The translations under genes were made by a program, and so were the position numbers. Below the pieces are notes generated by a model, which had not been told where the DNA came from, searched no databases, and saw only the letters and a list, made by a program, of their open reading frames with translations. A DNA stretch of 34,357 nt from an uncultured Bacteroidota bacterium (GTDB lineage: Bacteria; Bacteroidota; Bacteroidia; Chitinophagales; Chitinophagaceae), in assembly GCA_903881585.1 (NCBI GenBank), contig CAIRTW010000211.1, forward strand, positions 1 through 34,357, written 5' to 3'. This document shows positions 21,086 through 23,547 of the stretch, one piece after another (the first letter of the stretch is position 1; each line of letters begins with the position of its first letter).

Positions 21086-22468
21086 TTAACTTCGCCAGTC
21101 TTCCTTCCATTTTTTAAACTGCGCCGGGCTGATCCAATAGCGGGCAAAATTCCCGTCATGCAAGTTCATTAGCTCGGTTTCTACGGCCTCAATAAATTTA
21201 TGCTGGTCGTTTTTTGGGACTTGTTTTGCCGCTTCTTTTATTTTTATGGCAGCTTCTTTTCGTGGGGTTGCGGCAGAAACAAGCTCTGCCATAAGCGCCC
21301 GAATTGGTTCGCGATATTTCAGGCGAAATGGGTCTGGCTCACCAAGAGATTGACGGATAACTGCGTAGCGTGCTGCAGACCGTTCGTAGGCCCAAAGGAA
21401 TACGTCCTTCAAAAGAGTCGTATTATTGAGTTCATAGACGCCTTTAATTCCCTGCACGTACAGATCGTTGGGTACATCAACAAATGACAATGGCGCCAGG
21501 TTGTGACGATTCAGGGGAATATTGGCAGCAAGGCGGGAAACACGCTTGTTTACATCATCGAAAGGTTGCAGATAGGGCAGATGTACCATGATGAAAAACG
21601 CCTGTTCAAATGGATTTTTGATTTGACCGGCTTTTGCGAGCATCAACTCAAATAGCTCTTCAATCAATTGGGGTATGGCCAGAGGAATATATGTGGATTC
21701 GCCAATCCGAACTTCAATAGAACGCAATCGCCCTGCAGCTGCAGGGTTTGGCAGCAGGTTATTTGATAAGAGTGCATGAAGGTTTAGTATCGTATATCGG
21801 TTGAATCCGATGTCTGTTACGTCCCGCACAAGAAATTCAATAGCATCTTTGTGATTAAGGATCATCTGCGCTTCAGCGGCTGATTTGCTATCCGAAGTTT
21901 CGCCGAACGAGATCAGGCGTTCGGTATCAAGCAAAGAATATGTATTGCCTTCCATTCGGCTGGAGTTCCAGGAAAGATCTATAAGCAACCTGTTCATGAT
22001 TTCTTTGGCATAGGTTCCGGCTGGCTGGTCGGTTTTGGTGGTTTCCCCGATCTCTGCCAGCTTCATCATTTCGCTCACCTCCAGGTAGCTGTCCTTATTC
22101 GGGCGGTATTGTTCCAGGAATTTGCGGTTGTATCCTGCCGGCTGGCGATGCTGTATTGGCTGTAAAACTGTGGAAAGTATTTTTCTACCCTCCTTTGAGA
22201 GGGGTATTAATTCCGTTTTTGGTTGAGATTCATTTTTGTCTGCTGCGTCCGGATTAGCAAACTTATAAAGTGTTGAGCGCGTACTTCCTACGATGGTCAC
22301 AGCCCCCAATTCGTGCAATTTTTTCAACCGTCTCTGTAGTGTGCGTAATCCTATTTCAAGACCTGCGGCCTCATTAATTTCTTCAATAGAAGCGCCCTTA
22401 GTGAACTGTTTCACTGCATTTTTAATTGCTTCCAGCTCCTGGTAGGTCTTTTTATTACTGTTTTTCAT
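21086..22468 (-). CDS. Fic family protein with N-terminal winged-helix-like region
   Basis: The 460-residue protein carries a Fic core motif HLPYLQPFDDVNKRVSR (296-312), keeping the catalytic histidine H296 and the phosphate-binding NKRxxR. Fic enzymes usually transfer AMP from ATP to hydroxyl side chains. An inhibitory helix motif SSRMEG (169-174, form SxxxEG) lies N-terminal to the core, so the protein should inhibit itself (class II). Residues 8-70 look like a winged helix: QELEAIKNAV, SIEEINEAAGLEIGLRTLQRRLKKLHELGAVTIVG and TLYKF. This suggests it binds DNA, most simply at the TTGTCGTAA boxes directly upstream of its own gene. No toxin-type partner is next to it. The target of AMPylation is unknown. 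Confidence 0.88.
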   Translation of the reverse strand: MKNSNKKTYQELEAIKNAVKQFTKGASIEEINEAAGLEIGLRTLQRRLKKLHELGAVTIVGSTRSTLYKFANPDAADKNESQPKTELIPLSKEGRKILSTVLQPIQHRQPAGYNRKFLEQYRPNKDSYLEVSEMMKLAEIGETTKTDQPAGTYAKEIMNRLLIDLSWNSSRMEGNTYSLLDTERLISFGETSDSKSAAEAQMILNHKDAIEFLVRDVTDIGFNRYTILNLHALLSNNLLPNPAAAGRLRSIEVRIGESTYIPLAIPQLIEELFELMLAKAGQIKNPFEQAFFIMVHLPYLQPFDDVNKRVSRLAANIPLNRHNLAPLSFVDVPNDLYVQGIKGVYELNNTTLLKDVFLWAYERSAARYAVIRQSLGEPDPFRLKYREPIRALMAELVSAATPRKEAAIKIKEAAKQVPKNDQHKFIEAVETELMNLHDGNFARYWISPAQFKKWKEDWRS

Positions 22469-22597: not shown

Positions 22598-22875
22598 AGT
22601 AGATAGGTAGACCTTGGTGGAAATCAACTTTCGTTCTCCGATCGCGGCGAGCATCTAAAAAATGAGGTTCATCAGAGCCGAAATCATAGTTGCTTATTGT
22701 TGCCTGCCGATGGCTTCCTGCCATTCATACAATCCATCATCATCAAAAACATTGCCCCGCAGAAATCTTTCCAGGAATTCGTATAATGAGCGCGTTAGTA
22801 TAGTTTCTTTTTCGCCAACGGGGTTGGCAATTTCATATGTGCCATTACATTTTTTTCTCAAAAACCACATATCCG

Positions 22876-22883
22876 AGTAGATC
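22876..22883. repeat. Target-site duplication, left (AGTAGATC)
   Basis: AGTAGATC directly precedes the left terminal repeat and is repeated exactly at 23249-23256 after the right one. One copy belongs to the original SUKH gene, as the restored reading frame shows. Confidence 0.85.
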
Positions 22884-23248
22884 GGTAGTGTCCCAGTTTG
22901 AAACTGAGACACTACCCCCTTTTTTATTACCTTTAGCTTTATGAAAAAATACTTGATACTTCTTTTATTTAATGTAGTAGGGTTAATAATTGTATTTTTT
23001 ATGATTATTAGAAATGGAGACGGAGGCAATAGCGACCCAGCCGCAGCATTTATTGGCATGCCCTTGCTCGGTATTATTTCATTTGTGTGGCTTATTATTA
23101 TTTCTGTTATTTACAGGAAAACTATTTTTCAAAACAAATGGAGTATGTTACCCGCCATAATTGTTCTTATTATTAATGTGCAAGAATTGCGGATTTTGTA
23201 TTACCTGCTACGAAGTAAATACCGATAATTTCAAACTGAGACACTACC
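22884..23248 (+). mobile_element. 365-bp non-autonomous element carrying one membrane-protein gene
   Basis: The ends are 20-bp terminal inverted repeats, GGTAGTGTCYCAGTTTGAAA, with a single mismatch (22884-22903 and 23229-23248), flanked by the 8-bp duplication AGTAGATC. There is no transposase. The left end continues into a 33-bp palindrome (22884-22916) that looks like two terminal repeats fused tail to tail; with the following CCCTTTTTT it also has the form of a terminator. The rest of the element is one gene, whose stop codon abuts the right terminal repeat. Mobilisation in trans by an IS transposase elsewhere is the likely mechanism. IS families with 8-bp duplications exist, but I do not assign one. 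Confidence 0.85.
22941..23228 (+). CDS. Small membrane protein carried by the element
   Basis: The 95-residue product has three hydrophobic helices (about 4-23, 35-57 and 68-87) separated by a charged loop (IRNGDGGNSDP) and a basic loop (YRKTIFQNK), and a basic C-terminus (RSKYR). It matches no family I recognise. It begins 25 bases after the left palindrome and its TAA ends exactly one base before the right terminal repeat, so the coding region fills the element. The intact frame and protein-like composition argue that it is maintained. It could be a passenger gene with its own role, for example as an immunity or regulatory membrane protein; this is speculation. Confidence 0.65.
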   Translation: MKKYLILLLFNVVGLIIVFFMIIRNGDGGNSDPAAAFIGMPLLGIISFVWLIIISVIYRKTIFQNKWSMLPAIIVLIINVQELRILYYLLRSKYR

Positions 23249-23547
23249 AGTAGATCATGTATTCTGAAAAATAAAACCAATTTTTGCCGTAATTGTTTGT
23301 GTGGGAAAGGATGTCTTCGAGCGGACTAAAATTGAATATGTCTTCATTGCATTCAAAACCGTTGCAAATAGAGTAGAATTCAATAAAATCCTGCGGTAAA
23401 TTAACCCCAATTGCCGCCTCAAAATGGTGTATGTCGTCAACTGAAGCGGGAGGATGGACTGTGATTCCCTGTTCTTTATGCTTAAAGGCTATTGCAGACA
23501 CTAATTCTTTCATTGTCATACGAAAGATGTTCGGTTGGCTAAAAGAA

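Follow-up and report, generated by a model that had tools for sequence, protein, structure and literature searches.

A transposase-free one-gene insertion in a SUKH gene of a Chitinophagaceae bacterium, probably a mobile insertion cassette of an IS1-family transposon

Introduction

In an uncultured Chitinophagaceae bacterium, a SUKH gene is split by a short insertion that has the ends of a transposable element and carries a single small gene in place of a transposase. What kind of element is this, what could move it, and is its gene more than an accident of the sequence? The locus lies in a stretch of 34,357 nucleotides (contig CAIRTW010000211.1 of assembly GCA_903881585.1), which we call the window. 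A first-pass annotation of the window had described a mobile single-gene cassette and suggested that the gene may belong to a selected passenger family. We asked how far these proposals hold when the ends, the gene and possible full-length relatives are sought in other genomes.

Results

The element is 365 bp long (window 22884-23248) and has a G+C content of 34%, vs 46% for the window. Its terminal inverted repeats of 20 nt (22884-22903 vs 23229-23248) are complementary at 19 of 20 positions and are flanked by an exact 8-bp target duplication; the coordinates in the first-pass annotation were right. The features are as follows.

22694..22883, minus strand: interrupted SUKH gene, 3' part
22876..22883, no strand: left target-site duplication AGTAGATC, exact match to the right copy
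22884..22903, plus strand: left terminal inverted repeat, 20 bp
22884..22916, plus strand: left palindrome, 33 bp, the end plus an inverted copy of the end; predicted RNA hairpin
22941..23228, plus strand: 95-aa cargo ORF with three hydrophobic segments; no credible homologue
23229..23248, minus strand: right terminal inverted repeat, 20 bp
23249..23256, no strand: right target-site duplication AGTAGATC, exact match to the left copy
23249..23519, minus strand: interrupted SUKH gene, 5' part (PF09346)

The 5' part of the interrupted gene matches PF09346 with an E-value of 9e-10. When the element and one duplication were taken out in silico, an open SUKH frame of 150 aa resulted, in agreement with the earlier claim that the target gene is restored in frame. 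The N-terminal 90 aa of this frame, used as a query, matched in 2 of the 35 genomes of the window's genus, the window itself among them. The other match, in genome G023 (L119), is the kind of uninterrupted SUKH homologue that the first-pass annotation had proposed as confirmation: its alignment spans the insertion point, with 76 of 146 residues identical (52%). The insertion of a 365-bp transposase-free unit into the SUKH gene is confirmed. A 460-aa ORF adjoining the insertion site (21086-22468, minus strand) is, by eye, a candidate Fic-type protein.

The end sequence matches at three places in the window (at most 3 mismatches), vs none in 100 shuffles. The third match, at 22897-22916 on the minus strand with one mismatch, is the inner half of the left palindrome. 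Because the left side thus holds an inverted second copy of the end, the right-end sequence flanks the cargo gene on both sides, in direct orientation. As RNA, the palindrome is predicted to fold into a hairpin of -20 kcal/mol (z -4.06), which is followed by three C and then a T-run.

The cargo ORF starts 24 bases past the palindrome, close to it as had been described, and its stop codon abuts the right end (gap 0). It covers 78% of the element and is longer than expected by chance (P 0.002; comparison with 2000 first-order-Markov shuffles in which the ends stayed fixed). Hydropathy analysis gave three segments above 1.6, at residues 5-23, 36-54 and 68-86, consistent with the three-helix membrane protein that the first-pass annotation had predicted. 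The annotation was also correct that the element holds no transposase: neither transposases nor the small KGG protein of the full-length relatives described below match within it, and no remnant of either was found.

We then looked for homologues of the cargo protein. Among the 35 genus genomes only one matched, namely its own. A search of 79 genomes at the family level (E 0.1) gave matches in 18, and these were rejected; the best one outside the window (E 8.5e-4) has three internal stops. Pfam gave only the sub-cut-off matches MARVEL (E 0.1) and DUF805 (E 0.66), PHROGs one weak match (E 0.0087) and NCBIfam none, and no credible homologue emerged from peptide-pattern scans of genome and viral contigs or from tblastn on phages. 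The check proposed in the first-pass annotation, whether homologues of the 95-residue protein sit between similar ends, thus met with no credible homologue in the genus, the family, phages, Pfam and NCBIfam. Since the protein has no credible homologue, a passenger family cannot be demonstrated for the window cargo.

The ends gave a different picture. With at most 2 mismatches allowed, 67 occurrences (three of them in the window) were counted in 23 of 60 genomes, vs 3 for a reversed control; other copies, whose absence the first-pass annotation had named as the outcome that would tell against it, are thus present in related genomes. All 23 genomes are among the 35 of the window's genus, and none is among the 25 others. 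The exact 20-mer occurs in 11 of the 35 genus genomes, vs an exact 19-mer in 7 of 395 phylum-wide genomes (own genome included). The window's genus is rich in these ends. End counts at 3 mismatches carry no weight here, since the reversed control produces matches at that level as well; only exact matches were taken from that scan.

Paired ends were found at 13 of 80 genus end-loci (L037-L116). The 67 without a pair are contig-edge cases, relics, chance matches or unexplained, and a partner search for lone ends with ungapped and gapped scoring left only L051 clearly paired. Several loci (L044, L050, L053, L061, L083 and others) have perfect or near-perfect ends and no partner detected over several kb. 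In the window's own genome, near-ends at 3 mismatches lie at L005-L007 and at C5:8714. Of these, L005 (C110:451-470, also seen as L140) is a solitary perfect match to the variant end GGTAGTCCGTCAGTTTGAAA, and the first 12 kb of its contig hold no partner.

Eight short elements of the genus lack a transposase: the window element (365 bp), L042 (457 bp), L043 (542 bp), L051 (387 bp, right end decayed), L054 (1022 bp), L055 (699 bp), L066 (577 bp) and L068 (478 bp). The duplication agrees at 7 of 8 bases in L043, L054 and L055 and at 8 of 8 in the other five. By the same shuffle test (2000 first-order-Markov shuffles, ends kept), the longest ORF is beyond chance in seven of the eight (P at most 0.004), L051 having P 0.043. 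Its stop lies at most 5 bp from the inner edge of the end in six of the eight, an arrangement seen in 0.5-4.6% of the shuffles of each element, and at 28 bp in L054 and 32 bp in L055. Above the Pfam cut-offs, DoxX_2 was matched in L042, DUF1801 in L043 and DUF5808 in a second ORF of L054, whereas the cargo of L051, L055, L066 and the window gave no match. Genes with known domains thus do lie between such ends in sister species, which supports the proposal of mobile passenger genes but does not extend to the window cargo itself.

The cargo of L068 is a homologue of the L042 DoxX (79% identical). Neither blastn nor tblastx found a common flank for the two, and the DoxX cassette recurs at two unrelated sites. 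The pair shows pN 0.15 vs a nearly saturated pS of 0.71, suggesting purifying selection. The two genes resemble one another more than either resembles any further DoxX gene of the genus (66% at most). They may nevertheless represent two independent captures of close relatives. Outside the cassettes, six DoxX genes (L140-L145) were inspected, and no pair of ends encloses any of them even when 5 mismatches are allowed. A single variant end is found 3.3 kb from L140, and L142, L143 and L145 have single matches at 5 mismatches.

An autonomous element with the same ends, the search for which the first-pass annotation had proposed, was found in sister species, where four large elements hold an IS1-type transposase: L037 (4.1 kb), L038 (3.6 kb), L039 (3.8 kb) and L040 (5.3 kb). 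The duplication is 8/8 in the last three and 6/8 in L037. The L038 transposase matches Pfam DDE_Tnp_IS1 at 30.5 bits (cut-off 24.1), and PF03400 was above its cut-off in the three transposases scanned. The NCBIfam IS1 model NF033558 gave E 1.1e-16 and 61.4 bits, below its cut-off of 100, and PGAP annotates 'IS1 family transposase' in four of six plasmid relatives. A transposase match, remnants included, is present in 10 of the 35 genus genomes, and none was found in the window's own genome, whose assembly is 96.6% complete.

With six aligned transposases as the query, at least 547 stretches of genome contigs were found to encode relatives, and the best 80 were kept. Pairs of ends scored 26 or more at 61 of these; three (L197, L201, L208) were dropped as unrelated repeats, so that 58 of the best 80 loci lie between such ends with an 8-bp duplication, in elements of 2.2-5.9 kb that all have room for cargo. 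Judged by their record titles, members of Bacteroidota, Alpha- and Betaproteobacteria, Acidobacteria, Desulfarculus, Nitrospirae, Verrucomicrobia and Phycisphaerae are among the 58. For a set of 61 complete elements, we joined 57 of them to L037-L040, omitting L163, whose contig and element are the same as L039. All 61 hold a transposase by construction of the sample. They measure 2186-5883 bp (median 3220), with an exact 8-bp duplication in 58; in 55, neither end departs from the 19-nt consensus at more than 3 positions. The transposase is a single ORF of about 270-310 aa. In 27 of 60 elements (L159, L166 and L168, for example), it terminates at the TGA contained in the right end, which makes the coding sequence run into the terminal repeat; 30 of 60 have another 169-1443 bp after the transposase. 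ORF clusters 2-6, 8 and 9, antisense over the transposase, were judged spurious by eye.

A second gene is nearly as constant. Of the 61 complete elements, 57 have a KGG-cluster ORF close to their left end, ahead of the transposase, and in 56 of these 57 it is on the same strand as the transposase (L159:2459-2698, L174:3926-4165 and L038:1586-1825 are examples). The protein is small (about 79 aa) and basic, with the motif ..NQLAK.IVDIATGE.. or KGPKGQKRPADVI.., then ..GGLKGGKARA..L....R.EIAKKAA..RW. A few copies are visibly truncated (L176, L212), and L039 and L040, counted as lacking it, retain an N-terminal piece. No Pfam or NCBIfam model matched in the copies scanned (three for NCBIfam), and one PHROG of unknown function matched weakly; the protein may be a transposition or regulatory partner.

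The gene order is kgg, variable genes, transposase. Of 101 passenger ORFs, 100 were scanned. Pfam gave HTH_3 (17), Peptidase_M78 (13), P63C (7), SDH_protease (4), SocA (3) and GmrSD (1), and PADLOC gave RmrA models (up to 12), PD-Lambda-2_B (10) and RmrT (6), Rmr being what we take to be the RosmerTA system. The recurrence of HTH with Peptidase_M78, P63C and RmrA/RmrT matches indicates that the full transposons may spread defence genes of toxin-antitoxin type.

Two genus elements were kept apart from the eight short cassettes because they retain remnants. L041 (1268 bp) has some 23 residues left from the KGG start and 64 from the transposase end, as well as an ORF of 273 aa. The other, L082:1084-6773 (5690 bp), has the variant ends GGTAGTCCGTCAGTTTGAAA, an 8/8 duplication and no transposase match, and holds a KGG start together with Type ISP restriction-modification domains in two ORFs. 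The remnants of both genes in L041 and of KGG in L082 favour an origin of cassettes by loss of the transposase around a passenger.

In viral contigs, 80 loci were kept among the matches listed, and pairs had to share at least 7 duplication bases. There were 22 pairs, all with 8/8; seven of them had no transposase match and three had only 24-43 residues of one. In these ten short or emptied elements, the ORF was beyond chance at 5% in two (L262, L284), although the test is weaker here because G+C is higher. The general remark of the first-pass annotation, that short transposase-free elements mostly have no clear coding content, is borne out in these other hosts; within the sample studied, it is the window's genus that stands out by its coding cassettes. 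Two viral-contig elements, L252:3863-4316 (454 bp) and L296:179-574 (396 bp), have mutually reverse-complementary duplications and look like one insertion site with different internal lengths.

Discussion

Taken together, these data make it very probable that the window element is a mobile insertion cassette (MIC) derived from an IS1-family transposon with cargo, of which two ends and a single gene remain. It has IS-type inverted ends with a duplication, no transposase and a predicted passenger ORF, and its full-length relatives have an IS1-type transposase and 8-bp duplications. An IS1-type transposase supplied by a full-length relative would bind the 20-bp ends and move the unit in trans, inserting it at an 8-bp staggered target, here within the SUKH gene. 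The 95-aa protein would be produced and retained by selection, and the left hairpin may shield its gene from read-through. The unit probably arose when a full element lost kgg and transposase and the passenger remained, as L041 and L082 suggest. Against the MIC reading we count that the own genome gave no transposase match, that the cargo is an orphan, that 67 of 80 end-loci are unpaired, that no remnant of kgg or transposase is left, and that the NCBIfam IS1 score is below its cut-off.

A different origin is conceivable though unlikely: the gene may have been trapped between two minimal end-elements, the left palindrome being a collapsed mini-element, so that the outermost ends move the whole as a tiny compound transposon. 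The inverted end copy at 22897-22916, which puts the gene between direct copies of the right end, and the missing remnant of kgg or transposase keep this idea alive, whereas no such palindrome occurs in the terminal 55 bp of the other seven genus cassettes, and L041 and L082 point to internal deletion. Such a capture alters the origin of the window element, not its class. It is rather improbable that the element is an ordinary non-coding MITE with an accidental ORF, for which the orphan protein and the two of ten short viral-contig elements with an ORF beyond chance could be cited. A MITE is short and has no coding capacity, but the window element holds a 95-aa ORF at P 0.002 whose stop abuts the end; moreover, seven other genus elements are similarly built, with cargo that includes DoxX_2, DUF1801 and DUF5808, and the DoxX pair is under constraint. 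It is hardly credible that the ends are those of some other transposase family and enclose IS1-type genes by coincidence: weak NCBIfam matches to IS6 and IS1595 exist too, but ends of this type enclose 58 of the 80 best IS1-type loci, from several phyla, and 27 of 60 elements have the transposase stop within the right end.

Both 'mobile insertion cassette' and 'transporter IS' are terms in established use, and PMC3129680 defines MIC. The type case is MIC231 of Bacillus cereus (a reference in PMC2266710), MICs with qnr are on record (PMC3913671, PMC5444012), and, in the account given in PMC2266710, no other family had been seen by 2008 to carry modular passengers like those of the IS231 group. 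Like the MICs so described, the window element has a passenger gene between IS ends, no transposase and related autonomous elements (PMC3129680). It differs from MIC231 in that its ends and presumed transposase are of IS1 type, not IS4/IS231 type, and from MICs in that the genus has several different one-gene cassettes, with the stop at most 5 bp from the end in six of eight. Full-length relatives of the window element, like transporter ISs, carry non-transposition genes beside the transposase (PMC3129680), whereas the window element itself has no transposase and the full-length relatives share the small KGG gene. With the IS1 family, the relatives have in common a transposase above the DDE_Tnp_IS1 cut-off and 8-bp duplications, as in ISCaa4 (PMC3196728); they differ in their single ORF of about 270-310 aa and in their length, 2.2-5.9 kb vs 732 and 759 bp for two IS1-family elements (PMC3196728).

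MITEs resemble the window element in being short, with two inverted ends and no transposase, but one ORF fills most of the latter. The target duplication of the IS1 family is 8 or 9 bp. Integron gene cassettes, like the window element, hold one compact gene per mobile unit; here, however, there are inverted ends, a target duplication, a DDE-type transposase and scattered sites, and no array or integrase was seen. We found no description of this transposon family or of the end sequence in a literature search that had ISfinder and most subscription journals outside it. MICs are known already; what appears to be new is an IS1-type cargo-bearing lineage with unusually many coding cassettes in one genus.

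A broader and more tentative reading, to which we give somewhat less than even credence, is that the genus keeps a pool of one-gene cassettes on shared IS1-type ends, moved in trans by rare full elements: an integron-like economy run by a DDE-type transposase. Its cargo would comprise the small membrane protein, DoxX, DUF1801, putative lipoproteins and others, and the parent would be a pan-phylum transposon of the order kgg, cargo, IS1-type transposase, often with toxin-antitoxin-like or defence genes.

The tight packing of single genes between transposon ends, and the signs of purifying selection on one cassette that recurs, suggest that non-autonomous elements can act as carriers of genes and are more than debris. 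The well-kept 20-bp end is a handle for listing cassettes in any genome, and it also leads to small unknown proteins that selection keeps mobile. In the parent family, defence-type genes are among the cargo that is linked to an IS1-type transposase and to a small, conserved protein without a name.
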